Shown here: in pieces, positions 14,572-41,270 of the stretch | Layout of the letters: the number at the start of each line of letters is the position of its first letter | How positions within the stretch are numbered: position 1 is the stretch's first letter | Source of the DNA: Chlorobiota bacterium | GTDB lineage: Bacteria > Bacteroidota > Ignavibacteria > Ignavibacteriales > Melioribacteraceae | DNA: 49,467 nucleotides | Reading direction: 5' to 3' | NCBI GenBank assembly: GCA_013151245.1 | Contig: JAADIR010000071.1 | Span: forward strand, 1-49,467 | Notes under the pieces: generated by a model | The model's input: only the letters and a program-made list of their open reading frames with translations | Told to the model about the DNA's origin: nothing | The model's database searches: none | Program-made: the position numbers and the translations under genes

Positions 14572-15579
14572 ATGCATTCTGATCTGATTTCGACTCTGCA
14601 GAAAAGCAAATTATTCACGGGAATACCCTACGAAAACCTGTCTTTCATTTCGCTCAGCGCGGAACTTTTTTCGATAAGCGAAGGGAAAATTCTGTTCCGC
14701 AAAGGGGATTCGGTTGAGTTTGTATTTTTAATTCAGCACGGCGAGATAAATCATTTCATTGAAACGGAAAAAGGCGGCAGTCAAGTTGTATTATATCAGG
14801 ATAATGATTTTATAGTTCCGCCCGATTTCCAAAATGCAAAAACATATAATTCCACAACAGTTGCGGTAAGAGATACGATTTTATTGAAAATTCCTTTGAC
14901 CACATTTGATGAATTTCTCGAAGTGCACCCAATAATCAGCAGCACGCTTTATGAATATTTCAAAAACCGGGAAGGAATAAATTACGAACATCCTTCCTAC
15001 ACGACTACGGTTGCAGACGAACCGGAATCGCCCGCCGAAACAAAAAAAGAAATTGCGGTGGAAACAAAAGAAACGGGATTTGAAACGAACGCCGAAGCAG
15101 CCGGAGGAAACATTCCAAATCTTCCCGAACAGATTGAAATTGAAGGAAGTGAAAATCCGGAAGCAAATATTAAAGAAACTCCTTCGTCTCCGGCGGGAAA
15201 TATCGACGTTAGTCAAATTCCGGGGATACTTGAATTAACGACTGATTTATCGTTAGACTCTTTCGGAGGAACGGCGATTGTCACTGTAAATCTTGAAGAC
15301 GCTACGTTCACATCCGCGGCGGAAATCAAAAAGCTGCTTATATATTTAATAGACCATAAAATGACGAATATAATTGTCGATCTATCGACGGCGCAAATGA
15401 TTGATTCCACGTTCCTCGGCGCGCTTGTAGTTTCGCTGAAAAAATGCGCTACGGCAAAAGGCAGATTTGTCCTCGTCGGAAGCAATAAACCCGCGTGGAT
15501 GATTTTTGAAATGACCGGACTCGCCAGCGTTTTTACTTCTTACGAAACGTTGGAAGAAGCCAAAGCGTCATTCGGCTGA
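14572..15579 (+). CDS. Cyclic-nucleotide-binding-like domain fused to STAS domain
   Basis: This 335-residue protein has an N-terminal cNMP-binding-fold domain (about 1-125: LFTGIPYENLSFISLSAELF, GKILFRKGDSVEFVFLIQHGEI), an acidic, low-complexity linker (about 140-215, rich in E, T, P and N), and a C-terminal STAS domain (about 225-335). The phosphate-binding cassette normally containing GE...R is not recognisable (DNDFIVPPDFQN instead), so ligand binding may be lost or changed. The STAS switch reads MIDSTFLGALV, with threonine at the phosphosite. It probably works with the STAS protein just upstream. The 3' end overlaps the convergent U32 gene by 40 bp. Confidence 0.82.
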   Translation: MHSDLISTLQKSKLFTGIPYENLSFISLSAELFSISEGKILFRKGDSVEFVFLIQHGEINHFIETEKGGSQVVLYQDNDFIVPPDFQNAKTYNSTTVAVRDTILLKIPLTTFDEFLEVHPIISSTLYEYFKNREGINYEHPSYTTTVADEPESPAETKKEIAVETKETGFETNAEAAGGNIPNLPEQIEIEGSENPEANIKETPSSPAGNIDVSQIPGILELTTDLSLDSFGGTAIVTVNLEDATFTSAAEIKKLLIYLIDHKMTNIIVDLSTAQMIDSTFLGALVVSLKKCATAKGRFVLVGSNKPAWMIFEMTGLASVFTSYETLEEAKASFG

Positions 15580-18458: not shown

Positions 18459-19613
18459 TTATCCTCTTGTAAAAAATTCTTCTTTCAGCGTGTCCCATCC
18501 GAAATCGTCGAGCTTTTCCATTTCGCCGTAACTCAATCTTTGGCGCGGATCTTTTTCCCGGTCTTTAACCAGCTTCTTCAAAAGTTTTTCGCATTTTTCA
18601 ATGTCTTCTTCATAAAGAGTAACCGCGGTATTTCCGATTTTTAATTCTCCGAGTTCGGAATCGAGATTATCGGCGTCAATAGCGCAAATCCAATGCTTTT
18701 CATAGGGCGTTATTTTAAAAGCGTCAAAATCTTCCGGCAGTTCCTTATTTATTTTAGCTACTTTTCCTGAAACCGGCGCGGCAAAAGGAATTGAGCGGTT
18801 TCCCTGTTTAACGCTGAAAAGCGTCTGCCCCTTTTTGATTTCCATTCCTTTGTTCGGAAATTCAATGCCGTCAATTTGTCCGATAATTTTTTGAGCAAAA
18901 TCGTCAATGCCTACGCTGACAAGTCCGTCCTGATTAATGCTTGCCCAAACATGATTCTCGGAAATGAATACGCCGCCGGGAATTGCGAATTCGCCGGTTC
19001 CTAAAAACTCGGCGTCCGTTACGTGCGAAATATGAACTTTCGGCTTCAATTCCTTTTTAATTTTTTCTTCCCGTTTAATCAAACATTTTTGAGTGAACTC
19101 AAGAAGTTCGTCTTCGGTAAACGGTTTTTCAACGTAATCGAGCGCGCCGAATTTCATACAGTCAACCGCCGTTTGAACCGTTGCAAATCCGGTGATTATT
19201 ACTACGTCAATATCGGGACGAAGATGTTTGACCGCTTTGGTAACTTCAACGCCGTCCATTTCCGGCATTTTCAAATCGGTAAAAACAAAATCATAATGAT
19301 GCGTGCGGATAAGCGTAAGGGCTTCTTTTCCGCTTTCAACGGTGTCAACGCAATAGCCGTCGAGCACAAGAATTTTGCGAAAACTGCTCAAAATAACTTC
19401 CTCGTCGTCAACGCATAAAATGCGGGCTTTGGGGTTTTCAATTTCCGCTCTTTTGAGAGTTTTTGTTTCTTTGCTAAAATCAAGCTGCAAGCTTACTTGA
19501 AGAGCTTTCGCTCTTTCTTTACGTAAATGTTTTTCGCGGACTCTTTTTAATATTACTCTGATAGCTATATCGGCTATCACAAATATTATTACCGCAACTA
19601 CAAAAAGCGCCAT
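18459..19613 (-). CDS. Membrane-anchored response regulator with GcvH-like domain
   Basis: This 384-residue protein has an N-terminal membrane helix (residues 1-22), a receiver domain at about 62-185 (acidic pocket CVDDEE, phosphoacceptor D113 in FTDLKMPEMDG, KPF motif at 163-165), and a domain like glycine cleavage H protein at about 205-310 (HVWASINQDGLVSVGIDDFAQ ... APVSGKVAKINKEL). There is no DNA-binding or enzymatic output. In H proteins lipoate sits on the lysine of ESVK; here FSVK (K269) is followed by a short insertion, so lipoylation is doubtful. GAGGTGA precedes the ATG. It is the last gene of the cytochrome operon, after a sister regulator and a heme-containing kinase, so it probably receives phosphate from that kinase at the membrane. 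Confidence 0.82.
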   Translation of the reverse strand: MALFVVAVIIFVIADIAIRVILKRVREKHLRKERAKALQVSLQLDFSKETKTLKRAEIENPKARILCVDDEEVILSSFRKILVLDGYCVDTVESGKEALTLIRTHHYDFVFTDLKMPEMDGVEVTKAVKHLRPDIDVVIITGFATVQTAVDCMKFGALDYVEKPFTEDELLEFTQKCLIKREEKIKKELKPKVHISHVTDAEFLGTGEFAIPGGVFISENHVWASINQDGLVSVGIDDFAQKIIGQIDGIEFPNKGMEIKKGQTLFSVKQGNRSIPFAAPVSGKVAKINKELPEDFDAFKITPYEKHWICAIDADNLDSELGELKIGNTAVTLYEEDIEKCEKLLKKLVKDREKDPRQRLSYGEMEKLDDFGWDTLKEEFFTRG

Positions 19614-19637
19614 TTTTCACCTCGTTTTATTTAATGT

Positions 19638-20453
19638 TCAAATTCTATCGGAACTGCAAGAGACAAGATTCTTCAACTCAAAATCCAAATCCGAAGGAAT
19701 AATTCTGTAAAGCCATCCTTCGAAATAGGGGTCTTTTTCTATTAAAGTTATATCTTCTTTTAATTTATCATTCGGTTCTATTATCATTCCGCTTACGGGA
19801 GAAAGGAGATGATGGATTAATCCGTCTTCGGCTTCAAAGGTCGCGCAGATTGCGCCCTGAACAATGTTGTCTTCAAAATTGCGAAGGGTCAAGGATTTTA
19901 ACGTCTTTATTGTTTTCAAATACATATCGCTGACGCCGACAAAAACCGAGCCTTCGTTATCAATGTTTATCCAACTGTTGTAACCGAGTCGGTAGTATTT
20001 TGGCGGACAAGGAACATAAATAATCGACGCGTCCGTTACATTGAACTGTTCTTTGGCAATTTTTTTGTCAATTTTTTCAAACTCCAATCCTCTGTAAATT
20101 ATACTCAACAACTCATCGAGAGTGAACGGTTTGGGAATGTATCCGATTGCCCCTTTAGCCAAAGACTTAACCGCCATTTCCACGGTTGAATAACCGGTTG
20201 TAACTATTACGGGTATCTTCAATTTTCTTTTTTCCAATTCCTCCAATAATTGAAAGCCGTCCATTTCCGGCATCATTATGTCGGTGATAATTAATTTGTA
20301 TTCCGTTTCCAAAAGTTTGCCGAGAGCTTCTTTTGCGCTGAGCGAAGAATCGACTTTAAAACCTTCGCCGGTTGCAATTCTTTTTACAGCTTCGATGATT
20401 ACCGCTTCGTCGTCGATAACGAGTATGTCATATTTGTTTGTTTTATCAGCCAT
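19638..20453 (-). CDS. Response regulator with GcvH-like domain
   Basis: This 271-residue protein pairs a receiver domain (residues 8-125; VIDDEA, phosphoacceptor D58 in ITDIMMPEMDG, TGYS, and KPF near 113) with a glycine-cleavage-H-like domain (about 150-260; YNSWINIDNEGSVFVGVSD ... LLSPVSGMIIEPNDKL). The lysine that carries lipoate in true H proteins is absent (the segment reads ATFEAEDGLIHH), so it cannot serve as a lipoyl carrier. It shares architecture with the next gene but lacks the membrane helix. It starts 1 bp after the kinase stop codon, which strongly suggests co-translation with its cognate kinase. The H-like domain may be a protein-interaction module. Confidence 0.82.
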   Translation of the reverse strand: MADKTNKYDILVIDDEAVIIEAVKRIATGEGFKVDSSLSAKEALGKLLETEYKLIITDIMMPEMDGFQLLEELEKRKLKIPVIVTTGYSTVEMAVKSLAKGAIGYIPKPFTLDELLSIIYRGLEFEKIDKKIAKEQFNVTDASIIYVPCPPKYYRLGYNSWINIDNEGSVFVGVSDMYLKTIKTLKSLTLRNFEDNIVQGAICATFEAEDGLIHHLLSPVSGMIIEPNDKLKEDITLIEKDPYFEGWLYRIIPSDLDFELKNLVSCSSDRI

Positions 20454-20454
20454 T

Positions 20455-22326
20455 TTAAACCTGCGCGTTTACTGGTAACTGAACCGTGAAGGTCGTGCCT
20501 TCGTTAACTTTACTTTCAACGGAAATCTTTCCGTTGTGATTATCAATTATCCCCCAGATGATCGAAAGTCCGAGTCCCGTTCCTTTCTGTCCCTTCGTGC
20601 TGAAAAACGGCTCAAAAATTCTGTTGATATTTTCCTCGGATATTCCGCAGCCTGTATCGGAGATTTTTATTTTAATGTAGTCTTGTTTCCCTTTCGAGTC
20701 GATATAATCCCACTTCTGGCAATTGCACGCATATTTTGTGCACCCGACTAACGTTCCCTGATTTGGAATTATGATTTTATAAACGGGGGCGCCGCATTGT
20801 TCGCCGGTTTCTTTTTCGTCCACGACGGAAATGCCGCATACCGGACAAAAGAGTTTAACTATTTCATGTTCTTTAAATTGAATTCCGTAATGGTGCCGGT
20901 GTCTTCCGTAAATCGGGTCGAGATGAATGAAGCCTTCGTTTGTCGAAGATTTCGCTTTAAGTTTTATCGAAGGCATTCCGTCAATTTTGTGTTCTTCGTC
21001 CATTAAGTTATGACCCTTTGGGCAAGTCGCTTGTTTAATCTGTTTTACTCCATAGGGAACAAGACTAATTTTTTCGCTTGTGATAGTAAGCGTTCCGCCC
21101 TTTCCGCCCATCGCGTCGATTGAGTTTACGACTAAGTTCAAAACAACCTGCTGAATCTGGTTTGCATCTCCGGCGGCGTCGGGAATATCGTCGTCCAATT
21201 CTTTTTTTAGAGTAATGTTATGCAGCTTCAACTGATTTGAAATTACCGCGATAGCGTTAGAGATCACTTCGTTTACGTTCATCTTTCCTTCTTTGGGCGT
21301 CGATTGTCTGGAAAAATCCAATAATCCTTTAACAATTTCACGGCTTCTTTTCGTTTCGCGGACAATCACTTCGAGGTCTTTCTGCAATTCCGGATTGTCC
21401 TTTGCCCGTTTAAGAAGGAAGCTGCTGTATGTGAGAACGCCGGTAAGCGGATTGTTTATTTCGTGAGCCACTCCCGCAGCCAATCTTCCCAGCGACGCCA
21501 TTTTATCGGATTGGAAAAGCTGCACTCTCATTTCGGAAAGTTTCTTCATCATATTGTTGAATGATTTTGCCAAAATCCCAAGTTCGTCTTTCCCGTCATA
21601 TTTAATAGGTTGATTTAAATTCCCAATTGCAACTCGGTTAGTGGCTTCCACTAATTCGCGAACAGGTTTATCCACCCATCTCTCCACAAAAAAACCAATT
21701 AGCAAACTGAACGCTAAAATTGAAACGACGGCGAGAACTATATTTGTCAACCTGCTTTTTTCAATTGTCTCGTCGGCTATTTTTAAACAAAACGTAACGT
21801 CTAAAACGCCGAGCACTTTTTTTGATTTCGGATGAACATGGCAATCGGCTTCGTAACAGCTTTTCTCGTTATAAATAGGATTTATTATTCCCAGCATCCG
21901 CGAAGAGTCGGTTTCGGTTTTGAATATTCTTGTTCTGTTTAAAATCGGGAGCTTTTCCAGCGGTTTATTTTCGGCATGGCAAGCGTAACAATTCTCGTCT
22001 TTCATATCAACGGAAGACCCGATTTCATCGGCATTGGAAGAGTAAATCACTTCTCCCGATTTATTCAGAATTCTAATTTTCTTGACGCCTTCGCCGGAAT
22101 TTCCTATCCGGTTGATTACTTCATAAATCCGCTCCCTCTGATTTTGCAGCATGTGATTATGAAGACTCATCTTTATTATTTCGCTGAGTTGATTGCCGTT
22201 ATATTTGACAATATTAAAGAGGGCTTCTTTTTCGGAATTTGTTTGATAATAAGAAAAGACTCCAACTATTATCATAGCCGTTATGGCAATCACTCCTATT
22301 AATTTTGCTCTAATTTTCTGAAACAT
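20455..22326 (-). CDS. Membrane histidine kinase with c-heme periplasmic sensor and zinc-ribbon insert
   Basis: This 623-residue kinase has two membrane helices (about 8-27 and 194-213) around a periplasmic sensor domain. That domain has a CxxCH heme motif, C113-YA-C116-H117, and a second candidate, C157-x4-C162-H163, so it probably binds one or two c-type hemes. HAMP (about 213-268) and HisKA (H288 in VAHEINNPLTG) follow. The HATPase domain has N box LNLVVNSIDAMGG, G1 DTGCGIS (D557) and G2 GTGLGLS. Between N and G1, residues about 422-548 form an insertion with C435/H439, C494/C497, C511, C529, C534 and C536, a zinc-ribbon-like set. It follows the 13-heme cytochrome gene by 14 bp. Likely a redox or ligand (NO, O2) sensor for this operon. 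Confidence 0.85.
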   Translation of the reverse strand: MFQKIRAKLIGVIAITAMIIVGVFSYYQTNSEKEALFNIVKYNGNQLSEIIKMSLHNHMLQNQRERIYEVINRIGNSGEGVKKIRILNKSGEVIYSSNADEIGSSVDMKDENCYACHAENKPLEKLPILNRTRIFKTETDSSRMLGIINPIYNEKSCYEADCHVHPKSKKVLGVLDVTFCLKIADETIEKSRLTNIVLAVVSILAFSLLIGFFVERWVDKPVRELVEATNRVAIGNLNQPIKYDGKDELGILAKSFNNMMKKLSEMRVQLFQSDKMASLGRLAAGVAHEINNPLTGVLTYSSFLLKRAKDNPELQKDLEVIVRETKRSREIVKGLLDFSRQSTPKEGKMNVNEVISNAIAVISNQLKLHNITLKKELDDDIPDAAGDANQIQQVVLNLVVNSIDAMGGKGGTLTITSEKISLVPYGVKQIKQATCPKGHNLMDEEHKIDGMPSIKLKAKSSTNEGFIHLDPIYGRHRHHYGIQFKEHEIVKLFCPVCGISVVDEKETGEQCGAPVYKIIIPNQGTLVGCTKYACNCQKWDYIDSKGKQDYIKIKISDTGCGISEENINRIFEPFFSTKGQKGTGLGLSIIWGIIDNHNGKISVESKVNEGTTFTVQLPVNAQV

Positions 22327-22340: not shown

Positions 22341-23486
22341 TTATTTAATTTTCCGTTTAATATATTTACCGGGCAAATTATTCGGGAATGAAATATCATT
22401 ATCATGGCATTCCGCGCAATTTGGTTTCCCTGCAAAATTTCTATTAATATGACAATTCTCGCAGTAAAATTCGTCGTGAGGTTCGCTCAATTCAAAGCCG
22501 GTAACGCTGTGGTTAAAATTATCGTCATTCCATTTGCCGTGGCATGAGTTACAACTTTTTGATGGTTTCTTAAATTCCTTTCCTTTTCCGTGGCAAACTT
22601 CGCAAGAAATATTTTTATGAAATTTGCCGAGCGCAAATCCCGTTTTCTTCAAATGGTTAAAAGATTTTTCTTCTTTTGTTGAATGACAGAATCCGCAGTT
22701 GTCGTCCGTATCGTGGCACGAGGAGCATTTGTCGTGCGGATCGTCGCTATTCATAGAAGCCAAACCCTTCTTACTTTTAGCGGCGTTGTGGCAATCCGCG
22801 CATGTTGTTTCTTTATGGCAGTCTCCGCATTGCAGCCCGAACATTTTTGTGTGATCGGAATGAAAAAATGTTACAATGGGTTCGTCGTCGTTATCCGTAT
22901 GAAACACAATTTTTCCGGGCGTCTTTATATTCGATTGAAATTTTTCGGGGGCGGGTTTTATTTTTACAATTCCATTTTTCTCCGCCGAGCTTTTTGAAGT
23001 ATGGCATGAATTACAATTGTTGGAACCGCTCCATTCCCTGTGGCAGCCCAAACATTCCCGATGATACGCCGCTTTTAAATCGGGTCTGCTAATGCTCGAA
23101 GTTTCTCTGTCGAGCGTATGGCAATCATTGCACGGCGTGATTTTTCCGTTCGGCGTGTAATGATGGCACGACGAACAGCCGCCGTCCATTTCCGACATTT
23201 CGGCGTGAGCTTTGTGAGGGAAGTTCACCGGTCCGAATAAATCGGAAACGCCTTTAAACTGATCAATAATAATAATCTCCGGAGCGTCTTTCGGCGAGTT
23301 GTGCGTAGTGACGATTAAATTTCTCGGACATTTAACCAAGCAAGGATTTGATTTTGTAGGCGTATCGCAAGTGTGACAAACTTTGCAGTTGAGTTTTGAT
23401 TCTGCATGGTCAATATTCACTTTATCTTGTCCGCAAATATTTCCGGCTAAAAAAAGAAGGAACGATATCAGAATAAACTTTTTCAT
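22341..23486 (-). CDS. Periplasmic multiheme cytochrome c with 13 CxxCH motifs
   Basis: This 381-residue protein has a signal peptide (about 19 residues) and 13 CxxCH heme-binding motifs, from CKVCH near residue 34 to CAECH near 358, in about 360 mature residues. The heme density (one per 28 residues) matches electron-wire cytochromes. Extra histidines (FPHKAH, FFHSDH, FNHLKK, FNHSVT) are likely distal ligands. It overlaps the NrfD gene by 4 bp (ATGA) with GGGAGG as ribosome site. Together with the ferredoxin and NrfD subunits it makes a quinone-cytochrome oxidoreductase of the Hmc/Ohc/Nhc (complex iron-sulfur molybdoenzyme-related) type. Direction, electron donor and acceptor cannot be decided from sequence. 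Confidence 0.92.
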   Translation of the reverse strand: MKKFILISFLLFLAGNICGQDKVNIDHAESKLNCKVCHTCDTPTKSNPCLVKCPRNLIVTTHNSPKDAPEIIIIDQFKGVSDLFGPVNFPHKAHAEMSEMDGGCSSCHHYTPNGKITPCNDCHTLDRETSSISRPDLKAAYHRECLGCHREWSGSNNCNSCHTSKSSAEKNGIVKIKPAPEKFQSNIKTPGKIVFHTDNDDEPIVTFFHSDHTKMFGLQCGDCHKETTCADCHNAAKSKKGLASMNSDDPHDKCSSCHDTDDNCGFCHSTKEEKSFNHLKKTGFALGKFHKNISCEVCHGKGKEFKKPSKSCNSCHGKWNDDNFNHSVTGFELSEPHDEFYCENCHINRNFAGKPNCAECHDNDISFPNNLPGKYIKRKIK

Positions 23487-24727
23487 TTTGAACCTCCCTT
23501 GATTTCGAATTTTGCGGAAGCGGCGGCGCCGTAATTAGGCTGACTTATTACGGGAAAAATTCTAACAAGCAATCTGTAGAGAAGAATTTCTATTGCAATA
23601 AAACCGAGCGTGACGGAAATTTCGCCGAACGACGGGATGTAAACGTCCAATATATACGGCGGTTTATAAGCGATTACAAAGTTGTTGAATCTATTCAGAA
23701 AAACGCCGAATATAACCAGAAACGAAGCGATGAACAATCCCGTAGTCGATTCGCGCACCGCTTTCGACATAAACATTCTAAAAGGAATAATAAACCCCAC
23801 AACGACTTCGATTGTAAACATCACGCTTTGAAGATTAAACTCCGTCAGATATTTGAAGGTGTCTCTTATTGCCATATCTCCGATTTTAAAAGCAAGATAA
23901 ACGCCCAACAGCGGAGCGACGTAACCGGCTAGTCCCGATAATACTTCCTTTTCGGGTTTAAGCCCGAAAGAACGGGAAGCCGCAATCGATTCCATTATTA
24001 CCATTGGGAAGCCGACGGAAAATGCCGAGAGAAGAAACAGCAAAGGCAATATCGGCGTTTCCCACAAAGGGTGCATTTTTGAATGGGCGATAACCATCAG
24101 CGTTCCGAGCGAAGATTGATGCAAACACGAAAGAACAACGCCGGCTATGATAAAAATAAACATTGTCTTATCGAGCCCTCTGTCCAAAGCCCGCAGCAGT
24201 TTGTCAACCGGTCGGTTTAATCTTTTCAGCGCTCCCGGAAGTTTTACATTACCGATAAACCGTTCGGTAACAACGGGCAGAAACTCGATATATAAAACCG
24301 TTAGGTAAAACATTACGCAAATACCGACTTCAAAAAGAGGGGAAGAATGATTCCAGAAAACAAGCGGATGCCAAATATAATACCAGCGTCCGATATCCGT
24401 AAAAACTCCCATAGCTACAAATGTGTAGCCGAGCATTGCGGTTAGAAGAGCCGGACGGGTTATAACCTCATATTTATCTTTGTGGAAAATGTGTCCCAGC
24501 GCCGCCGTTGTAAATCCGCCCGCGGCAAGCGCAACTCCGGCTCCCACGTCGAGTCCAATCCAAATTCCCCATGGATATTGATTATTTAAATTTGTTACGG
24601 CTCCTATTCCGAAAATAAACCTGCCCAAAAGAAAAATAATTCCGTTCAGAGCAATTAAACTAATGAAGATAACTCCCGGCGTAAAATATTTTATTTTAAC
24701 GGGCGCGGGTTCCATATAATGCTGCAT
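23483..24727 (-). CDS. NrfD/HybB-type quinone-reactive membrane subunit
   Basis: This 414-residue protein is an NrfD (polysulfide reductase C) family integral membrane protein with about 9-10 membrane helices (for example GVIFISLIALNGIIFLLGR near the N-terminus and VMFTIEVVVGFIIPF late). NrfD proteins bind menaquinone near the periplasmic side and pass electrons to or from the attached four-cluster ferredoxin. The length and the NNQYPWGIWIGLDVGAGVAL stretch fit the HybB/Hmc-type branch. GGAGG inside the end of the preceding gene positions the ATG. The genes for ferredoxin, NrfD and cytochrome are so tightly packed (3-bp gap and 4-bp overlap) that they must make one complex. Confidence 0.92.
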   Translation of the reverse strand: MQHYMEPAPVKIKYFTPGVIFISLIALNGIIFLLGRFIFGIGAVTNLNNQYPWGIWIGLDVGAGVALAAGGFTTAALGHIFHKDKYEVITRPALLTAMLGYTFVAMGVFTDIGRWYYIWHPLVFWNHSSPLFEVGICVMFYLTVLYIEFLPVVTERFIGNVKLPGALKRLNRPVDKLLRALDRGLDKTMFIFIIAGVVLSCLHQSSLGTLMVIAHSKMHPLWETPILPLLFLLSAFSVGFPMVIMESIAASRSFGLKPEKEVLSGLAGYVAPLLGVYLAFKIGDMAIRDTFKYLTEFNLQSVMFTIEVVVGFIIPFRMFMSKAVRESTTGLFIASFLVIFGVFLNRFNNFVIAYKPPYILDVYIPSFGEISVTLGFIAIEILLYRLLVRIFPVISQPNYGAAASAKFEIKGGSK

Positions 24728-24730
24728 ATA

Positions 24731-25630
24731 TTAATCCTCCTCTTCATTTTTCTTCGTTAAATACATTATTCCGCCGAGTAAGGCATAAAGCGCAACGGGG
24801 GGAACGAAATAAGCAAACAATCCGTGCTGAATTGATTCCGTAACGCCCGGAGCCGTTTCGGTTCCTAATTTCGGAAATACTTTTCCGCTTAAATTTTCGG
24901 AACCGATGTAAAGCCACGACGTTCCGCCTACTTCATATTCGCCGTAAACATGATTGAAATATTTATCGGGATAGTTTTTTAATCGTCTGTGCGCTTCTTC
25001 CAGCAAGTCAACCCGTTTCCCAAAAACCAAAGCTTCAACGGGACATATTTCTACGCAGGCGGGGAGTTTGCCTTCTTTTTGTCTGTCAAAACAAAAATCG
25101 CATTTCATAATTTTGGGATCGAGAGCTTTTTGATATTCAAAAGCGGGAACTTGAAACGGACAGGCGACCATGCAATAGCGGCAGCCGATACATTTATCGG
25201 TATCCCATATAACCGCGCCGTTTTCCTCTTTGCTCAGCGCGCCGACGATACATGCGGAAACGCACGCCGGATGTTCGCAGTGCATACATTGAATTTTTAC
25301 GTCGAAATCCGGGTCTCCAAGGTTGTTAGGCTTATATTCGTTTACAATTGTCAAAGCCGTGTCGTCGGGGCGGCGCATCTTTTTAAAAACCGAACGGTCT
25401 TCATACGAATCGAAATCTCCCTGCGGCAAACCATGCGCGCCTTTGCACGCCCATTCGCATTTACGGCAGCCTATGCACAAGGTCGAATCGACTAAAACTC
25501 CCATGTGTTCGGCGGGCGCGGCGGATTCGGGAGACGCGGCTTTTAATTTTGAGTTTGAAACGGCGCTTACTCCCATTGTAGCCGCGCCGATTAAAGCCGA
25601 AGTTTTTAAAAATTCTCTTCTACTCTGCAT
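24731..25630 (-). CDS. Tat-exported four-[4Fe-4S] ferredoxin subunit (HybA-like)
   Basis: This 299-residue protein has a twin-arginine leader (SRREFLK at residues 3-9), four cysteine clusters (CIGCRKCEWACKG; CMHCEHPACVSAC; CIGCRYCMVACPF; CDFC with CVEICPVEAL) and a C-terminal membrane helix (about 270-292, YFVPPVALYALLGGIMYL). That is the layout of HybA/HmcB: exported, anchored in the inner membrane and facing the periplasm. It should carry electrons between NrfD-bound quinol and the 13-heme cytochrome. AAAAGGA lies 7 bases before the ATG. A 214-bp gap with a dispersed repeat separates it from the NifX-like gene upstream. Confidence 0.92.
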   Translation of the reverse strand: MQSRREFLKTSALIGAATMGVSAVSNSKLKAASPESAAPAEHMGVLVDSTLCIGCRKCEWACKGAHGLPQGDFDSYEDRSVFKKMRRPDDTALTIVNEYKPNNLGDPDFDVKIQCMHCEHPACVSACIVGALSKEENGAVIWDTDKCIGCRYCMVACPFQVPAFEYQKALDPKIMKCDFCFDRQKEGKLPACVEICPVEALVFGKRVDLLEEAHRRLKNYPDKYFNHVYGEYEVGGTSWLYIGSENLSGKVFPKLGTETAPGVTESIQHGLFAYFVPPVALYALLGGIMYLTKKNEEED

Positions 25631-25844: not shown

Positions 25845-26177
25845 TCATAAACGTTTCTTCAGTTTGTTTTTAATTTTTCTGCGATAAATGTATTTATCCA
25901 ATATCTCGTTTGCGTTTCCGTGAATCCAAGAAAGAACGCGGACATTTTTTTTCTTTAACTTTTCTCCGTAAACGTCCGTAAGTCCGTCGCAGATTATTAG
26001 GTCCGGTTTTAATTCAATTAATGTATTCAATTTTTGAAGCCGGTTTTTTGTAAGTAGTTTTATTGTTTCTTTATTGATTAGTTTTCTCCCTTCAATTTCC
26101 GCAATGAGAAAACTTTCGGCGTAATCAAGCCTGGGAGAAATTCTGTTTTCAAAAACCGGTATTACGATTTTTTCCAT
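25845..26177 (-). CDS. NifX/NafY-like cofactor-binding-fold protein
   Basis: This 110-residue protein is a dinitrogenase iron-molybdenum-cofactor biosynthesis-type domain (NifX/NafY/ NifB C-terminal fold). It starts KIVIPVFENRISPRLDYAES, the standard first strand and loop, and has LKPDLIICDGLTDVYGEKL in the middle, then a Lys/Arg-rich tail (RRKIKNKLKKRL). No nitrogenase gene is nearby. In anaerobes such stand-alone domains often occur beside redox or metalloprotein operons and may bind a metal cluster or act as an adaptor. It is first after the sigma-54-type promoter and is followed by the ferredoxin gene. Function in this operon is inferred from position only. Confidence 0.78.
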   Translation of the reverse strand: MEKIVIPVFENRISPRLDYAESFLIAEIEGRKLINKETIKLLTKNRLQKLNTLIELKPDLIICDGLTDVYGEKLKKKNVRVLSWIHGNANEILDKYIYRRKIKNKLKKRL

Positions 26178-26181
26178 CTCG

Positions 26182-26209
26182 CTAATCTTTTATGATTATA
26201 AAAGATTAG
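26182..26209. promoter_or_regulatory. Perfect 12-bp inverted repeat at the operon start
   Basis: CTAATCTTTTAT (26182-26193) and ATAAAAGATTAG (26198-26209) pair perfectly around GATT. On the minus strand it spans from the -11 region to just before the ATG at 26177, so it covers the predicted transcription start. It could be a repressor operator or a 5' leader hairpin in the transcript. Its edge touches the -12 element of the sigma-54 promoter. Confidence 0.65.
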
Positions 26210-26225
26210 GCAATTTGCATACCAA
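26209..26225 (-). promoter_or_regulatory. Candidate sigma-54 (-24/-12) promoter
   Basis: On the minus strand the sequence reads TTGGTATGCAAATTGCC. The GG at the -24 position and the GC at the -12 position are separated by exactly 10 bases, and the -12 half TTGC and the -24 half TGG match the consensus TGGCACG-N4-TTGC. It lies 33 bp upstream of the NifX-like gene and just after a gene for a sigma-54-dependent activator, so sigma-54 control of the cytochrome operon is a coherent reading. Confidence 0.7.
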
Positions 26226-26323
26226 AGAATCGGTTTCGTTTTAATGTGAGTTTAAGAGGTTTTAAAAAATTTTATCGTCGGAGAGCGTCGCAGGGCTGCA
26301 ACTGTAGGAATGCAACAGTAGCG

Positions 26324-27727
26324 TTAACGCAACGCGGACGCGTTTATTTCTTCGAGAAGATTATATTTTTTTATTTTGCGCCAAAGAGTAGAGCGGTGCA
26401 TTTCCAATTCTTCCGCCGTTTTTTCCTTATTCCAGTCGTTCCTTTTTAAGGCTTCTAGAATAATTTTACACTCGCTCTTTTGAAGAGGATTTTCAATTTT
26501 TCTTTTTTTACATTCGTAATATTTTAACTGCTGAAGTTCAACCGGCAGATGCTCGACTAAAATTTCTTCGTCGCGGCACATAACAAAAGCGTGCTCAATA
26601 ATATTTTCAAGTTCGCGCACGTTGCCCGGGAAGCCGTAAACCATTAAGATTTCCATAACGGCGTCGTCAACGCGCATAATATTTTTATCCATCTTATGGT
26701 TAAATTTCCGCACGAAATGTTCTACTAAAAGAGGGATATCGTCGCGCCGTTCGGCAAGAGTGGGGAGTTTCAATTTTACAACGTCGAGCCTAAAATAAAG
26801 ATCGTCGCGGAATTTATCTTCATTAACTAACTTTAATAAATTATTTTTTGTAGCCGAAATAATACGAACGTTAGATTTGATTGTCGCCGTAGAACCGAGC
26901 GGTTCAAATTCCTTTTCCTGAAGAACGCGGAGAAGTTTTACCTGCGTTGCCAAAGAAAGGCTGTCGATTTCGTCGAGGAAAATAGTTCCTCCTTCGGCGA
27001 GCTTGAATTTACCGGGCTTATCTTTTTTTGCGTCTGTAAACGCGCCTTTTACGTAACCGAATAGTTCCGATTCCAAAAGCGCGTCGGGCAAAGCTCCGCA
27101 GTTAACCGGAATAAACGGTTTCTCTTTTCTGAAACTTAAGTTGTGAAGCGCCCGCGCAAAAAGCTCTTTCCCCGAGCCGCTTGGACCTTCAATCAGCACG
27201 GCGCTGTCGCTTTCGGCAATGTTCGGTAGAATTGAAAATATATCGAGTATTTTGTGATTCTTTGAGATAATATCTTCGAAAGTATATTTGCCTTCTATCT
27301 CTTTCCGCAGCGATTCAATAGTGGAAAGGTCGCGGAAAGATTCAACGCCGCCGATGATTTTTCCGTTTTCGTCTTTTAATGAAGAAGCGCTTATTTTTAC
27401 GGGAATTAATTTTTGATCATTCCGGAGAATTGTAACTTGTTTTGTGAGGTTTGTTTTTGAACCCGATATCGATTCTCTAATCAGACATCCGTTTTCGCAA
27501 ATATTAGATCTGAGAACTTCAAAACAGTATTGTCCTATCGCTTTATCGGCAGCTGTGCCGGTAATTTGTTCAGCCGCTTTATTAAAGAAAGTAATTTTTA
27601 AATTTTCATCGACCGTAAAAACGCCGTCGGCTATACTATTTAAAATAAAAGTGGAATGTGTTTCCGCAATTTTGATTTTGCGTTCTTCTTGTAAGGCAAC
27701 TTCCGTATTCATAAAGAGTTGTTCCAT
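26324..27727 (-). CDS. PAS-domain sigma-54-dependent transcriptional activator
   Basis: This 467-residue enhancer-binding protein has a PAS domain (about 24-135), an AAA+ module (Walker A GPSGSGKE at 181-188, Walker B TIFLDEID ending at 255) and a Fis-type helix-turn-helix at the end (about 420-460; TAEELEMHRSTLWRKIKKY). The sigma-54-contact loop reads GAFTDA (228-233) instead of GAFTGA, a variant found in some family members. The PAS has C68-x8-C77-x3-C81, a cysteine set that could hold a metal or Fe-S cluster. No receiver domain, so it senses directly. A -24/-12 promoter lies directly downstream in front of the cytochrome operon, its probable target. Confidence 0.9.
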   Translation of the reverse strand: MEQLFMNTEVALQEERKIKIAETHSTFILNSIADGVFTVDENLKITFFNKAAEQITGTAADKAIGQYCFEVLRSNICENGCLIRESISGSKTNLTKQVTILRNDQKLIPVKISASSLKDENGKIIGGVESFRDLSTIESLRKEIEGKYTFEDIISKNHKILDIFSILPNIAESDSAVLIEGPSGSGKELFARALHNLSFRKEKPFIPVNCGALPDALLESELFGYVKGAFTDAKKDKPGKFKLAEGGTIFLDEIDSLSLATQVKLLRVLQEKEFEPLGSTATIKSNVRIISATKNNLLKLVNEDKFRDDLYFRLDVVKLKLPTLAERRDDIPLLVEHFVRKFNHKMDKNIMRVDDAVMEILMVYGFPGNVRELENIIEHAFVMCRDEEILVEHLPVELQQLKYYECKKRKIENPLQKSECKIILEALKRNDWNKEKTAEELEMHRSTLWRKIKKYNLLEEINASALR

Positions 27728-33799: not shown

Positions 33800-35932
33800 A
33801 TGAATGTAGAAAAATTCTACTACGATAATGAAACTCCGAAATTGTTTGCCTATGCGACAGTATTTTGGGGCGTTATCGCGCTTCTGGTCGGACTGATTGT
33901 AGCATTCGATATCTACAATCCCAGTTGGAGCCTTGGGATACCGTATCTTACGTTCGGTAGAATTCGCCCGCTCCATACTAACGCTGCAATTTTCGCTTTT
34001 GTCGGAAACGCTATCTTTGCGGGAGTTTATTATTCTCTGCAAAGAATTTCCAAAGCGCGAATGTTCAGCGATGTTCTAAGCAAAATAAACTTTTGGGGTT
34101 GGCAGCTGATTATTATTGCAGCCGCAATTACTCTTCCTCTCGGAATCACAACTTCAAAAGAATACGCGGAACTTGAATGGCCTATCGATATTGCAATTGC
34201 GGTTGTTTGGGTCGCTTTTGGAATCAACATGATTGGAACGCTGGTTAAAAGAAGAGAAAAACACATTTACGTTGCCGCATGGTTTTACATTGCCACTTTT
34301 GTTACGGTAGCCGTGCTTCACATTGGCAACTCAATTGAATTGCCGGTTTCTTTCTGGAAAAGTTATCCGGTTTACGCAGGCGTTCAAGACGCTCTAGTTC
34401 AATGGTGGTACGGGCATAACGCGGTGGCGTTCTTTTTAACCACGCCGTTTCTGGGGCTGATGTATTACTTTTTGCCAAAAGCCGCGAACCGTCCCATATT
34501 TTCATACCGGTTATCAATTCTTCACTTTTGGTCGTTGATATTTATTTACATTTGGGCGGGACCGCATCACCTGCTTTATACCGCATTGCCTAACTGGGCG
34601 CAATCTTTGGGAACGGTATTTTCTATTATGTTATGGATGCCTTCCTGGGGCGGTATGTTTAACGGTCTATTTACGCTGCGCGGAGCTTGGGACAGAGTGC
34701 GCGACGATCCGATTCTTAAATTTATGGTTGTAGCCGTTACCGCATACGGTATGTCCACTTTCGAAGGTCCGATGCTCGCGCTTAAAAACGTTAACGCTTT
34801 AGCGCATTATACGGATTGGATTCCCGCGCACGTGCACGTTGGAACTTTAGGATGGAACGGATTTATGACTTTCGGAATGCTGTATTGGATGCTTCCGAAA
34901 CTTTTCAGAACAAATCTTTATTCAAAGAAATTGGCAAACGCCCATTTTTGGATTGGAACGCTCGGCATTGTTATGTGGGTTATCCCGATGTGGTGGGCTG
35001 GAATTACACAGTCATTGATGTGGAAAGAATTCACCGAAATAGGATTATTAAAGTATCCCAACTTCCTGGAAACGGTTTTGCAAATTGTTCCGATGTATGT
35101 TATTCGTTCAATTGGCGGAACCCTCTATTTTACGGGACTTTTGATATTAGTTTATAATTTATATAAAACGGTAAGAGTCGGCTCGTTTGAAAAAAATGAA
35201 GCCGTTGAAGCTCCTCCCAGAGATAAAACAAAAGAAGTATTAAAATGGGGAATGATTCACAGATATCTGGAATCAAAAGCAATTTTATTTACTATGCTGA
35301 CTTTGTTTGCAATTTTAATAGGCGGGTTTGTTGAAGTAGTTCCCACCTATTTGATAAAATCAAATATTCCTACAATTGAATCGGTCAAGCCTTATACGCC
35401 GCTTGAACTTCAGGGACGCGATATTTACATTAGAGAAGCGTGCAACAGCTGCCATTCGCAGATGGTAAGACCGTTCCGTTCCGAAGTGGAAAGATACGGC
35501 GAATATTCCAAAGCGGGAGAATTTGTTTACGATCATCCTTTCCTATGGGGATCAAAAAGAACGGGACCCGATTTACACAGAGTAGGAGGCAAGTACGCCA
35601 ATATGTGGCACTACCTCCATTTCCAAGATCCAAACCAGATGTCTCCGGGCTCTTTAATGCCGAGATATACTTGGCTGCTTGAGTGGGATATAGACGTTGA
35701 ATCGACGCCGGCAAAAATTTCGGCGATGCGTACTCTCGGCGTTCCTTATCCCGAAGGGTATGAAGATCAGTGTATTGCGGATCTCGAAGCTCAGGCTCAA
35801 GAGATTTCCGAAGACTTGTTAGACAGCGGTATTCTTACGGAACCGAACAAAGACGTAATTGCTTTAATTGCTTACCTTCAGCGGTTAGGCACAGATATAA
35901 AAGCTAATAAATCTGACGAAACCCAAAAGTAA
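33800..35932 (+). CDS. ccoNO: Fused cbb3-type oxidase subunits I and II (CcoN-CcoO)
   Basis: This 710-residue protein fuses the catalytic heme-copper subunit CcoN (about 1-470, 12 or more helices) with the monoheme cytochrome CcoO (about 500-710). CcoN motifs are IRPLHTNAAIFAF (heme b ligand), WWYGHNAVAFFL (Cu-B region), WAGPHHLLYTALPNW (Cu-B histidines) and HVHVGTLGWNG (heme ligands). The CcoO part has one heme site C548-NS-C551-H552, with the following QMVRPFRSEVERYGEYSKAG stretch typical of CcoO. This single chain reduces O2 to water with high affinity and pumps protons. AAGGAGAG lies 8 bases upstream. The fusion is known in Bacteroidota and relatives and fits the suggested lineage. Confidence 0.93.
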   Translation: MNVEKFYYDNETPKLFAYATVFWGVIALLVGLIVAFDIYNPSWSLGIPYLTFGRIRPLHTNAAIFAFVGNAIFAGVYYSLQRISKARMFSDVLSKINFWGWQLIIIAAAITLPLGITTSKEYAELEWPIDIAIAVVWVAFGINMIGTLVKRREKHIYVAAWFYIATFVTVAVLHIGNSIELPVSFWKSYPVYAGVQDALVQWWYGHNAVAFFLTTPFLGLMYYFLPKAANRPIFSYRLSILHFWSLIFIYIWAGPHHLLYTALPNWAQSLGTVFSIMLWMPSWGGMFNGLFTLRGAWDRVRDDPILKFMVVAVTAYGMSTFEGPMLALKNVNALAHYTDWIPAHVHVGTLGWNGFMTFGMLYWMLPKLFRTNLYSKKLANAHFWIGTLGIVMWVIPMWWAGITQSLMWKEFTEIGLLKYPNFLETVLQIVPMYVIRSIGGTLYFTGLLILVYNLYKTVRVGSFEKNEAVEAPPRDKTKEVLKWGMIHRYLESKAILFTMLTLFAILIGGFVEVVPTYLIKSNIPTIESVKPYTPLELQGRDIYIREACNSCHSQMVRPFRSEVERYGEYSKAGEFVYDHPFLWGSKRTGPDLHRVGGKYANMWHYLHFQDPNQMSPGSLMPRYTWLLEWDIDVESTPAKISAMRTLGVPYPEGYEDQCIADLEAQAQEISEDLLDSGILTEPNKDVIALIAYLQRLGTDIKANKSDETQK

Positions 35933-35941
35933 GCGAGGTAA

Positions 35942-36139
35942 ATGATGTTTTCAAGTTATTTAAGTGCAATTGACGGAATAGAGGTTTTTCCAATTATCTC
36001 TTTAATTATTTTCGTAACAGTCTTTTTAATAGTTTTGATTAGAGTGTTCGCGATGGATAAAAAGAGCGCTGTTGAAGCCGCCAATATTCCATTAAAAGAT
36101 GAAATTTTAACAACAAAATCTGAGAGTAAAAATGGATAA
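35942..36139 (+). CDS. ccoQ: cbb3 oxidase small subunit CcoQ
   Basis: This 65-residue (or 64 from the second ATG) protein has a single helix (about 17-38, IISLIIFVTVFLIVLIRVF) and a short charged tail, as in CcoQ, which stabilises the oxidase complex. GAGG at 35935-35938 is only 3 bases from the first ATG and 6 from the second (35945), so the second may be the real start. It overlaps ccoP by 8 bp. Assignment rests on position and size because CcoQ sequences are poorly conserved. Confidence 0.85.
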   Translation: MMFSSYLSAIDGIEVFPIISLIIFVTVFLIVLIRVFAMDKKSAVEAANIPLKDEILTTKSESKNG

Positions 36140-37316
36140 ATTAAAGAAAATTTTATTTACTCTGGTTTTCGTTTCTTTTCTTTCGTCTCCTTTGTTCGCG
36201 CAAACCGGCGGAGGCGGAGGGGATTTTGAAACGATCATTAAAGCGGTAATTGCAATATTCGCGGCGTTAACCGCTCTGGTTCTTTGGCTTGTTTTTGCGG
36301 TTGCCGAAAAAGAAGAACTGGAAGACGAAAACGCCGTTTCTCCGCTCCAGGGATTTTGGAATTTAATTAATAAAAGAACTCCTATTGAAGATGAAAATAA
36401 AATTCTTCTCGAACACGATTTCGACGGCATACGGGAACTTGACAACAAGATTCCGCCATGGTTCAACGCAATTTTGTGGGGAACGGTAGTGTTCGCAATT
36501 GTTTATATGGTAAATTACCACATAATCGGTTCCGGCAACGTTCAGGAAGAAGAATACGCGGAAGAGATGCGCGCGGCAAAAATGCAGCGTGAATTACTCT
36601 CTGAAAGCGGCGCGCTGGTTTCGGCGGAAACCGTAACGGCTCTAACCGATCCGGCGGATTTGGAAAGGGGTAAAAAAATATTCCTAAAAAACTGCGCCGC
36701 GTGCCACGGTCAAAACGGCGAAGGATTGGTCGGTCCGAATTTTACGGATGAGTATTGGATACACGGCGGAGGCATCAAAAACGTTTTCCATACAATTTCC
36801 GAAGGCGTTCCCGCAAAAGGAATGATTAGCTGGAAATCACAATTATCCCCCGGCGAAATTCAAACGGTGGGCAGTTACGTATTAAGTCTTAGAGGGACGA
36901 GTCCGCCGAATCAAAAAGGTCCCGAAGGGAAAAAATGGGATTCTTCCGAAGAAGACGTCGGAGGCGGTTCTTCCATGGCGGACAAGGGAATCGGTCCGAT
37001 TAAAAATGTTGAAATCGGCGCAATCGATCTTCAATTAGCGAAAACCGGCGAAGAAGTGTTTGTCGCCAAATGTTCCGCTTGCCACAAAATAGAAAAGCGT
37101 TTTGTCGGTCCCGCGCTAAAGGACGTCACAAAAAAACAATCGCCGGAGTGGATTATGAATATGATTCTTAATCCCGCGCAGATGATTAAGGAAAATGCAA
37201 CCGCAAAAAAACTGTTAGCCGAATATCTGACGCAAATGGCAAACCAAAATCTTACGCAAGACGAAGCAAGATCCGTTCTGGAATATCTCCGAACGCAGAC
37301 GTCCGATAAAAAATAA
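36132..37316 (+). CDS. ccoP: cbb3 oxidase diheme cytochrome subunit CcoP
   Basis: This 394-residue membrane-anchored diheme cytochrome c brings electrons to CcoNO. It has three hydrophobic segments (a cleaved or uncleaved leader at 1-24, helix about 33-58, helix about 108-130) and two periplasmic heme domains: C188-AA-C191-H192 and C314-SA-C317-H318. The N-terminal part with two extra helices is longer than in Proteobacteria (about 290-310 residues) and typical of Bacteroidota-type CcoP. The sequence between the hemes is low in complexity. It overlaps ccoQ by 8 bp and is followed after 13 bp by a strong terminator, so it is the last gene of the ccoI-P operon. Confidence 0.92.
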   Translation: MDKLKKILFTLVFVSFLSSPLFAQTGGGGGDFETIIKAVIAIFAALTALVLWLVFAVAEKEELEDENAVSPLQGFWNLINKRTPIEDENKILLEHDFDGIRELDNKIPPWFNAILWGTVVFAIVYMVNYHIIGSGNVQEEEYAEEMRAAKMQRELLSESGALVSAETVTALTDPADLERGKKIFLKNCAACHGQNGEGLVGPNFTDEYWIHGGGIKNVFHTISEGVPAKGMISWKSQLSPGEIQTVGSYVLSLRGTSPPNQKGPEGKKWDSSEEDVGGGSSMADKGIGPIKNVEIGAIDLQLAKTGEEVFVAKCSACHKIEKRFVGPALKDVTKKQSPEWIMNMILNPAQMIKENATAKKLLAEYLTQMANQNLTQDEARSVLEYLRTQTSDKK

Positions 37317-37329
37317 CGCATTCTTACGG

Positions 37330-37365
37330 CGAGCATAACTTTTTGAGTTATGCTCGTTTTTTTTT
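37330..37365 (+). terminator. Intrinsic terminator after ccoP
   Basis: CGAGCATAACT (37330-37340) and AGTTATGCTCG (37346-37356) form an 11-bp perfect stem with loop TTTTG, followed by nine T (37357-37365). It separates the cbb3 operon from the fasciclin-nos operon. Confidence 0.93.
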
Positions 37366-37420
37366 ACGAATCGCAAATAATTTTCCTAAAAGTATTTGTA
37401 TTCAGATAAAAAAATCTTAT

Positions 37421-37434
37421 TTTACATTTGTAAA
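37421..37434. promoter_or_regulatory. TTTACA-TT-TGTAAA palindrome (cop-box-like)
   Basis: Arms TTTACA and TGTAAA surround TT. The core TACATTTGTA (37423-37432) fits the TACANNTGTA operator of CopY/BlaI/MecI-family repressors, some of which respond to copper. It lies 90 bp before the fasciclin-nosZ unit, a copper-enzyme operon. A -10/-35 pair is not clear nearby (a TTGAGG and TAAAAT pair further down has a 15-bp spacer), so its role is inferred. Confidence 0.45.
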
Positions 37435-37523
37435 GAACAGCGTTTTCTTGAGGGCAAACTGAAGCTGTTAAAATTTATTAATGAAGGTTTTTTATCTAAT
37501 TTTTAACTAAACAAGGGTGAAAC

Positions 37524-38102
37524 ATGAGGATTAAAATATTTGTTTTTTTTGTAATAACGCTGCTGATAAGCGCTTGTAATTCGGGAGACGAAGGAAAAGT
37601 CTCAAACCAAAGCGCGTCCAATTCGTTTGAACAAAACACTCCTAAAGGACAAGCGTCGTATTCAGACGACGTTTCGGCAAAAAATATTTTGCAGGTTGCC
37701 GAAGGATCAAAAGATCATACTACATTAGTGGCTGCCGTGCAAGCCGCGGGAATAGAGCATGTGCTTGTTAACGCCGGACCGTTAACGGTTTTCGCCCCCA
37801 CTAACGCGGCTTTCGACGCGCTGCCCGAGGGAACTGTGGAAACATTGCTGAAACCTGAAAACAAATCAAAACTAGCTTTTATCTTGACTAACCACGCGGC
37901 GCCGGGCTCCTTTAATTTAAAAGCCTTAAAAAAAGAAGCTAAAAAGGGAAGAAAAATTTACACGGCTGCGGGCGATTATCTGGAAGTTAAAGTTGACGGA
38001 GACGATGTTTATGTCGGCGGAGCAAAAGTTTTAGCTTCAATTCAAACAAGCAACGGCGTTATTGACGTTGTGGATAAAGTTATTTTACCAAAAGAAAAAT
38101 AA
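37524..38102 (+). CDS. Fasciclin-domain lipoprotein
   Basis: This 192-residue protein is a lipoprotein (lipobox LISAC, C18) with one FAS1 domain (about 50-190). Its signatures are LTVFAPTNAAFDALPEGTVE and SNGVIDVVDKVILP. FAS1 domains mediate protein-protein contact and adhesion. Here it starts a transcription unit of its own (terminator behind, ATG after AAGGGTGAA) and nosZ follows after 31 bp, so it probably belongs to the N2O reductase operon and could be an anchor or accessory to the lipid-bound reductase. No enzymatic motif or metal ligand set is visible. Confidence 0.88.
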   Translation: MRIKIFVFFVITLLISACNSGDEGKVSNQSASNSFEQNTPKGQASYSDDVSAKNILQVAEGSKDHTTLVAAVQAAGIEHVLVNAGPLTVFAPTNAAFDALPEGTVETLLKPENKSKLAFILTNHAAPGSFNLKALKKEAKKGRKIYTAAGDYLEVKVDGDDVYVGGAKVLASIQTSNGVIDVVDKVILPKEK

Positions 38103-38133
38103 ATCTTAACTTAAAACAAAATAGAGGAAAAGT

Positions 38134-40101: not shown

Positions 40102-40138
40102 TTTTTAAATTTAAGATGTAATCACTTTATTTTTTCAT

Positions 40139-40172
40139 AGGGATATGGTAAGTTTACAGATACTATATCCCT
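40139..40172 (+). terminator. Hairpin after nosZ, weak terminator or processing site
   Basis: AGGGATATGGTA (40139-40150) pairs with TACTATATCCCT (40161-40172) through 12 positions including one G-T, loop of 10 bases, followed by TTTTCTTATTT. It lies 38 bp after nosZ and before the rest of the nos genes. An attenuator or mRNA-processing hairpin that makes nosZ more abundant than the assembly proteins is possible. Confidence 0.45.
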
Positions 40173-40192
40173 TTTCTTATTTAAGGCAGGTC

Positions 40193-40762
40193 ATGAAATT
40201 ATCAAAAATTTTAATGCTAACTGCGGCAATTTTACCGCTGTTTCTTTTTATTCTTCCTATGTGGAGCATTTCGCTGCAGGCTCCTCAATACCCGATTCCG
40301 CTGCAAATTAATATTTTTATCACCCATCTTGAGGGAGAACAGGAAGGCGATATCCAAAATTTCGATTTAATGAATCATTACGTAGGTATGAGAAAACTTC
40401 CAACGGAAATGGTTGAGTTCGATATATTCCCCTTTGTTATCGGCGCAATGTCGCTTATGGGAATTATTTTTGCTTTAGTGGGCAATAAAAAATTATACTT
40501 AACATGGTTTATAATTATGGCGCTTTTAGGCGTCGCGGGAATTTATGATTTTTATCTGTGGTTATATGATTACGGACATAATCTGGATCCGCGCGCGGCA
40601 ATTCAATTATTAGACGCTTACCAGCCGCCGGTCTTCGGAACAAAACAAATTCTTAATTTCACCGTGCGTTCCTATCCGTCGTTGGGCGCGGTTTTTCTTG
40701 GAATCGGAATTCTGTTATCGCCGGTCGCCTATTACATAGAAAAGAAAAAGGAAAGAGGATAA
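40193..40762 (+). CDS. nos-cluster integral membrane protein
   Basis: This 189-residue protein has about four membrane helices (ILMLTAAILPLFLFILPMW at the N-terminus; FPFVIGAMSLMGIIFALV; YLTWFIIMALLGVAGIYDF; LGAVFLGIGILLSPVAYYI) and no cysteine. I do not recognise a family with confidence. Its position between nosZ and nosL is that of the membrane proteins (NosB-like) found in clade II nos clusters, where they are thought to help the reductase work in vivo; I do not assign the symbol. AAGGCAGG upstream fixes the start at 40193; a longer reading from 40145 includes the hairpin. nosL follows after 2 bp. Confidence 0.7.
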   Translation: MKLSKILMLTAAILPLFLFILPMWSISLQAPQYPIPLQINIFITHLEGEQEGDIQNFDLMNHYVGMRKLPTEMVEFDIFPFVIGAMSLMGIIFALVGNKKLYLTWFIIMALLGVAGIYDFYLWLYDYGHNLDPRAAIQLLDAYQPPVFGTKQILNFTVRSYPSLGAVFLGIGILLSPVAYYIEKKKERG

Positions 40763-40764
40763 AC

Positions 40765-41202
40765 ATGTATTCACCTAAGCTATTACTGAGCTTTTTCGCA
40801 TTTTTATTTCTTGTTTCTTGCTCGATTGAAAAAAGTCCGATTAACTATGGAAAAGACGCGTGCCATTTTTGTAAGATGACTATTGTTGACAGACAACACG
40901 CGGCGGAAGTCGTTACCGACAAAGGGAAAGCTTACAAATATGACGCAATTGAGTGTATGCTAAACGACCTTCAAGGAAACAAAGAAAGAAAGATTGCTTT
41001 GTTTTTAATAGACGATTATTCGTCGCCCGGAGAACTGATAGACGCCAAAGAAGCTACGTATCTTATAAGCGAAAATTTACCCAGCCCGATGGGCGCTAAT
41101 CTTACCGGCTTTGGAAGTAAAGAAAAAGCAATGGAAACCCAAAAAGAAAAAGGCGGAACTATTTATTCATGGAATGACTTAAAACGATTGTTTAAAAAAT
41201 GA
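40765..41202 (+). CDS. nosL: Copper chaperone NosL
   Basis: This 145-residue periplasmic lipoprotein (lipobox LFLVSC, C19) has the NosL copper motif C33-HF-C36-K-M38. NosL binds Cu(I) and supplies it for the Cu-Z and Cu-A centres of NosZ. It starts 2 bp after the membrane protein gene, with AGAGGA upstream of the ATG. The central IECMLNDL stretch (a conserved cysteine/methionine in the family) is present. Length normal. Confidence 0.92.
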   Translation: MYSPKLLLSFFAFLFLVSCSIEKSPINYGKDACHFCKMTIVDRQHAAEVVTDKGKAYKYDAIECMLNDLQGNKERKIALFLIDDYSSPGELIDAKEATYLISENLPSPMGANLTGFGSKEKAMETQKEKGGTIYSWNDLKRLFKK

Positions 41203-41270
41203 TACGATTTTCAATCTGTTCGAAATATGTTGATTTTTCATTCCGGTTTTAAATCTCCGGAAAGACTTCG

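Follow-up and report, generated by a model that had tools for sequence, protein, structure and literature searches.

Most response regulators exert their effect through DNA or through small-molecule enzymes, and the question raised by the present locus is what two receiver domains might control when each is joined to a domain resembling the H protein of glycine cleavage. The two genes lie side by side on contig JAADIR010000071.1 of a Chlorobiota bacterium from the family Melioribacteraceae, and have been analysed with their surroundings in a stretch of 49,467 nucleotides, hereafter the window. We refer to the longer fusion of a receiver and a GCV_H domain as RRH_L and to the shorter one as RRH_S. 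The features of both proteins and of the four genes beside them are collected in Table 1.

Table 1. Positions in the window of the two fusion proteins, their domains and the adjoining genes
Feature	Position	Strand	Size or evidence
RRH_L: membrane helix, receiver, H domain, C-terminal helical tail	18459..19613	(-)	384 aa
RRH_L N-terminal membrane helix, residues 2-22	19548..19610	(-)	Hydrophobicity, invariance, model
RRH_L receiver, residues 65-172	19098..19421	(-)	Pfam Response_reg (PF00072) 3.5e-30
RRH_L phospho-acceptor Asp113	19275..19277	(-)	60/60 homologues
RRH_L H domain, residues 218-328	18630..18962	(-)	GCV_H 6.5e-20; Foldseek GcvH TMt 0.91
RRH_L Asn272, lipoyl-lysine position	18798..18800	(-)	Ungapped alignments
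RRH_S: receiver and H domain, without membrane helix	19638..20453	(-)	271 aa
RRH_S receiver, residues 10-119, acceptor Asp58	20097..20426	(-)	Pfam Response_reg 5.9e-28
RRH_S H domain, residues 157-265	19659..19985	(-)	GCV_H 2.3e-16; Foldseek GcvH TMt 0.87
Sensor histidine kinase	20455..22326	(-)	623 aa; CxxCH and Cx4CH before HAMP; Cys-rich insert
13-heme cytochrome c	22341..23486	(-)	Cytochrom_CIII 3.5e-17; 13 CxxCH in ORF; 13 hemes also in homologues
NrfD/HybB/HmcC-like integral membrane subunit	23483..24727	(-)	Family-profile matches
HmcB/HybA-like 4Fe-4S subunit with Tat signal	24731..25630	(-)	Family-profile matches

Domain make-up of the fusion proteins

The GCV_H family (PF01597) is matched with 71.7 bits by RRH_L and 60.3 bits by RRH_S against a Pfam cut-off of 22.2, and family-profile scans of both reading frames returned no DNA-binding or enzyme family. 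AlphaFold2 models, built on alignments of 60 (RRH_L) and 52 (RRH_S) homologues, reach a mean pLDDT of 85.6 and 93.0, and their best PDB matches in Foldseek are crystal structures of GcvH, 3a8j_E for RRH_L and 3a8i_E for RRH_S, with receivers ranking after these in both cases. With E. coli GcvH as the reference for the TM values of 0.91 and 0.87, the models place both H domains in the true H-protein fold and not in a different one. Residues 4-22 of RRH_L have a Kyte-Doolittle mean of 2.9 and the model has a helix over residues 2-39; Asp15 and Arg19 within the membrane helix are invariant among the 60 homologues. The original prediction of two receivers fused to H-like domains, neither with a DNA-binding or enzymatic output and only one on a membrane helix, is upheld on all these points.

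Judged by their residues, both receivers are intact. D69, D70, D113, T141 and K163 of RRH_L are each found in 60/60 homologues, and D14, D15, D58 and K108 of RRH_S in 52/52; over both sets of homologues the only departure from the full catalytic set (acidic pair, Asp, Thr/Ser, Lys) is one Thr/Ser exchange, seen in two. The fusions thereby resemble other response regulators (PF00072) in which a canonical receiver keeps every catalytic residue and a DNA-binding domain is absent; they differ in their H-fold output, their one membrane-anchored copy and the operon that they share with a respiratory complex.

The lipoyl lysine had been predicted to be missing in the shorter regulator and shifted by an insertion, as K269, in the longer one. 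The first half of this claim stands and the second does not. A phmmer alignment of RRH_L with solved GcvH runs through the hairpin ungapped and puts Asn272 at the lipoyl position, and a profile-profile alignment with 20 canonical GcvH proteins from the genome of the window and its relatives agrees, pairing K269 with the Glu of the canonical E-A-V-K, three residues before the lipoyl Lys; with no gap through the hairpin in either alignment, the idea of an insertion was discarded. The lipoyl column holds Lys in 20/20 canonical GcvH, in 5/60 RRH_L, where Asn is found in 27/60, and in 0/52 RRH_S, where the residue is mostly Glu, Gly or Asp. By these alignments the attachment site has been lost in both fusion proteins, and a canonical, lipoylatable GcvH (EAVKTVSD) is encoded elsewhere in the same genome. 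It is therefore very improbable that the H domains are lipoylated, for instance at K269, and act as a redox-active swinging arm: canonical H proteins do carry lipoate and 51/60 homologues have Lys or Arg in the K269 column, but in 11/60 the residue is Arg, which is unable to carry lipoate, and the column pairs with the canonical Glu in a family whose true lipoyl column is seldom Lys. The hairpin is not merely decaying and seems to have been rebuilt for another use around a conserved Q-G-N-R motif, because Q270 (51/60), R/K273 (53/60) and F277 (56/60) are conserved in RRH_L and His214 (51/52) in RRH_S.

The likeness to GcvH is thus one of fold and of a profile identity of about 25% across some 105 residues, whereas the absent lipoyl lysine, the fused receivers, the membrane helix of RRH_L and a separate clade in the tree set the fusions apart; the NCBIfam GcvH cut-off of 117 bits is missed by both (73.1 for RRH_L, 58.8 for RRH_S). 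Lipoate-free domains of the H-fold or barrel-sandwich kind are contained in NqrA and RnfC, and the matches of RRH_L to these domains are weak and below cut-off. LbpA of the sHdr pathway is a lipoylated GcvH-like protein that, as proposed here for the fusions, serves a redox system other than glycine cleavage; LbpA keeps and needs its lipoate, in contrast to RRH_L and RRH_S, which have no such lysine and have receivers instead (PMC6067878). No hdr-type match was found among the scanned genes of the window.

Operon context and distribution

Looking for the same fusion near other NrfD complexes, as the original prediction had proposed, revealed a conserved FeS-NrfD operon context in relatives. 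The gene order of these neighbourhoods is fixed, running from the 4Fe-4S subunit through NrfD, the 13-heme cytochrome and the histidine kinase to RRH_S and RRH_L, so that the fusion pair forms the end of an operon in which fusions, kinase and NrfD module are linked, as gene order shows. RRH_L was found in 28/58 sampled relatives of the order and in 3/150 sampled genomes of the Elusimicrobia-labelled phylum, and a scan of 84,980 species genomes gave 293 related loci. The best 80 of these 293, which are biased to close relatives, come mostly from Ignavibacteria, with further ones in MAGs labelled Calditrichota, Elusimicrobia and Gemmatimonadetes, the phylum labels being those of the records, and in Stygiobacter electus 09-Me. 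The last of these (L124) is named as a strain and not as a MAG, so that experiments are imaginable.

Among the best 80 of 293 loci, where contigs reach far enough, RRH_S is present in 76/78, the kinase in 70/71 and the FeS gene in 55/59. The kinase that accounts for the single absence turned up in a further search, and the loci that lack this FeS gene have a related FeS-NrfD pair, accompanied by a pentaheme gene and one more RRH_L. At one locus (L105) the kinase and RRH_L are present and RRH_S is absent, from which it follows that RRH_L alone can sit below the kinase.

Several other origins of the signal have been set aside. A chance match to GCV_H is ruled out by the E values, the fold and the number of related loci, and an annotation or frame artefact by the recurrence of RRH_L in the sampled relatives. 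Matches to viral contigs are weak only (28-33% identity, mostly to the receiver part), and in no plasmid record does a match reach 80% coverage of RRH_L.

The electron transfer genes recall the Hmc and Hyb modules (HmcBC, HybAB), in which HmcB/HybA-like and HmcC/HybB-like subunits likewise occur with a multiheme cytochrome c, but the operon here has a 13-heme cytochrome unlike HmcA and a built-in two-component system with H proteins. The NCBIfam cut-offs are missed for HmcB (321.6 of 420 bits), HmcC (268.2 of 550), HybA (250.1 of 263) and HybB (342.9 of 450), and the cytochrome, with 13 hemes, scores 45.6 of the 400 bits asked of the hexadecaheme HmcA. No NiFe hydrogenase genes were found among the ORFs of the operon or in their family-profile scan. 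At five loci (L050, L106, L127, L153, L159) the operon is a variant: an additional RRH_L and a gene for a pentaheme cytochrome come first, and the FeS-NrfD pair is another one, nearer to HmcB/HmcC. Multiheme cytochrome genes follow the operon in many Melioribacteraceae, some with a cytochrome b561 domain, as in an 814-aa protein (L042:1938-4382) that combines this domain with a 16-heme cytochrome c region.

The kinase gene adjoins that of RRH_S, which makes its product the putative cognate kinase. Its two heme motifs, CxxCH and Cx4CH in the presumed periplasmic part, are present in 64/64 homologues, and in 62/64 the ATPase domain holds an insert of about 110 residues rich in Cys (CxxC), which may be a metal-binding second input.

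Receiver-free relatives and a kinase-less lineage

Genomes that carry the fusions, and genomes of other orders, have further operons in which a membrane-anchored H-like protein, here H1, is encoded with FeS and NrfD subunits, a different kinase, a regulator of the NtrC type and, in most cases, one more H-like protein. The H1 proteins are mostly 215-250 aa long (for example L038:3906-4577 and L166:8735-9445), have an acidic residue in the helix near the place of Asp15 in RRH_L (Asp in 20/25) and have no conserved lipoyl lysine (Lys in 3/35). They resemble RRH_L in their homologous helix, H domain and tail and in their FeS-NrfD neighbours, and differ in having no receiver and a DNA-binding protein as cognate regulator. 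Because this helix-H-tail plan is shared, and the profile alignment spans 178 columns and takes in the tail (E 1e-44), RRH_L looks like an H1-type protein that has gained a receiver after the membrane helix and before the H domain.

In a tree of H domains all non-canonical ones split from canonical GcvH (support 98), RRH_L grouping with the H1 proteins and RRH_S joining another receiver-free H-like clade. These placements hint at two separate fusion events, though with supports of only 80-87; the receiver tree, on the question of shared ancestry, has long branches and one outlying row. A Cys-rich second H-like protein (H2), encoded beside NrfD and a kinase at L162-L167 and L172-L175 (for example L166:11509-12357), was considered as the counterpart of RRH_S and rejected, as RRH_S fits H1 better in profile alignment. 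In the H2 proteins a Cys motif at the N terminus, of the type CIWMDAGVVxYKLCDRNFECExCPFD, precedes the H domain. At one locus an M54 (archaemetzincin-type) peptidase (L064:15527-16069) ends the receiver-free operon of H1, FeS, NrfD, kinase and NtrC-type regulator, and ORFs of similar size recur at the same place in other H1 loci, the family being assigned for L064 only.

A small lineage has lost the kinase. In two genomes of one genus (G324 and G505, 90% identity) and one of another (G512, 49%, on a contig that starts at NrfD) RRH_L directly follows the cytochrome gene of the FeS-NrfD-13-heme cytochrome operon (loci L170, L203 and L204), and neither the kinase nor RRH_S is found in that operon. 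The kinase was found nowhere in the three genomes by a search that detects it in two other genomes at E < 1e-200, and RRH_S was not found in the whole genome of G324, the one searched for it, G505 and G512 being less complete. In all three the acidic pair of RRH_L is broken (EK or DK) and Asp113, invariant in the other 60 RRH_L, is replaced by Gly or Ser, while helix, receiver shell and H domain persist. Kinase and phospho-site have thus been lost jointly, as far as gene content and residues tell. The simple reading is that the RRH_L receiver would answer to this kinase and that its H part would still serve the complex in its absence, a reading of limited weight because the three genomes form one clade only.

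Proposed control of the electron transfer module

We consider that the operon combines a FeS-NrfD-multiheme module with a two-component system that acts on the module itself, through phospho-gated docking of the H domains, and give this a probability of roughly one half (about 0.52). The module would be a quinone-linked FeS-NrfD-multiheme cytochrome c system, and the kinase, with two periplasmic hemes, would sense how reduced or oxidised the cytochrome pool of the periplasm is and pass phosphate to the soluble RRH_S and the membrane-anchored RRH_L. Their lipoate-free H fold would be a docking module; phosphorylation would alter how it docks on the NrfD complex from the cytoplasmic side and would thereby gate or tune the exchange of electrons between quinone and cytochromes in the periplasm or outside the cell, no transcription factor taking part. 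Put as a heme-sensing kinase that acts by phosphorylating lipoate-free H-fold proteins, including a membrane-anchored partner of the complex, and so gates NrfD-type electron exchange without transcription, the proposal falls somewhat short of even odds. The near-constant placement beside an electron transfer complex and a heme kinase suggests that the kinase probably controls the complex directly and not a gene. Comparative genomics strongly suggests an association of RRH_L and RRH_S with the NrfD complex, operon linkage not being proof of contact; that this particular kinase phosphorylates them, that they dock physically on NrfD and that electron flow is gated are steps that we infer, and a phospho-controlled interaction module is, as a hypothesis, the best reading of the H domains.

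Fold and domains, the invariant receivers, the fixed operon order, the di-heme kinase, the homology of RRH_L with H1 and the kinase-less genomes all count for gating. Against it counts that an NtrC-type regulator accompanies the H1 proteins, which makes the signal route there transcriptional. The fusions could be signalling connectors, phosphate sinks or sequesterers of a transcription factor such as the PAS-sigma54 activator at 26324-27727, with expression of the operon as the output. Receiver proteins without DNA-binding output do often work through other regulators, and this activator precedes the operon in the window, as it does in several relatives, but it is missing beside most copies of the operon; moreover RRH_L is membrane-anchored, is homologous to proteins encoded beside FeS-NrfD and remains with the complex genes after kinase loss, and we regard a connector role as unlikely. 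Slightly less probable still is that both fusions help to assemble or stabilise the NrfD complex, with a structural H domain and a receiver that sets amount or turnover in place of gating. This would suit an RRH_L kept with NrfD-cytochrome genes despite a dead receiver and no kinase, as well as receiver-free H1 proteins that follow the same job plan, but the receiver residues are invariant wherever the kinase is present, which argues that phosphorylation matters.

Here a phospho-switch is fused to proteins homologous to the membrane H-like ones that accompany FeS-NrfD modules, and the operon is conserved under several phylum labels. It would offer a testable case in which the redox control of anaerobic respiration is direct and post-translational, and the H-protein fold would have found a second career, its lipoyl hairpin apparently rebuilt. 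No paper joining GcvH with NrfD, or describing a receiver-H fusion, was found in the open-access literature, which most subscription journals lie outside, and domain-architecture databases may list the combination; the text of a multi-omics paper on Melioribacter mentions neither NrfD nor Hmc nor glycine cleavage (PMC5492636).

Around the operon, the window holds further genes of respiration and signalling. A small Nitro_FeMo-Co-like protein, below the Pfam cut-off, and the PAS-sigma54 activator, which has no receiver, precede the operon (25845-27727), and the same pair is upstream in a few relatives (for example L036, L043, L080, L099 and L109). Between these two genes lies a sigma54-type -24/-12-like site, TGGTATGCAAATTGC (26210-26224), one plausible site in a window where matches of this type do not exceed chance. 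A cyclic-nucleotide-binding domain is fused to a STAS domain at 14572-15579, next to a separate STAS protein, and positions 33800-45536 hold cbb3 oxidase genes, with a fused CcoN-CcoO, followed by a cluster of the nitrous-oxide-reductase type (nos propeller, NosD).
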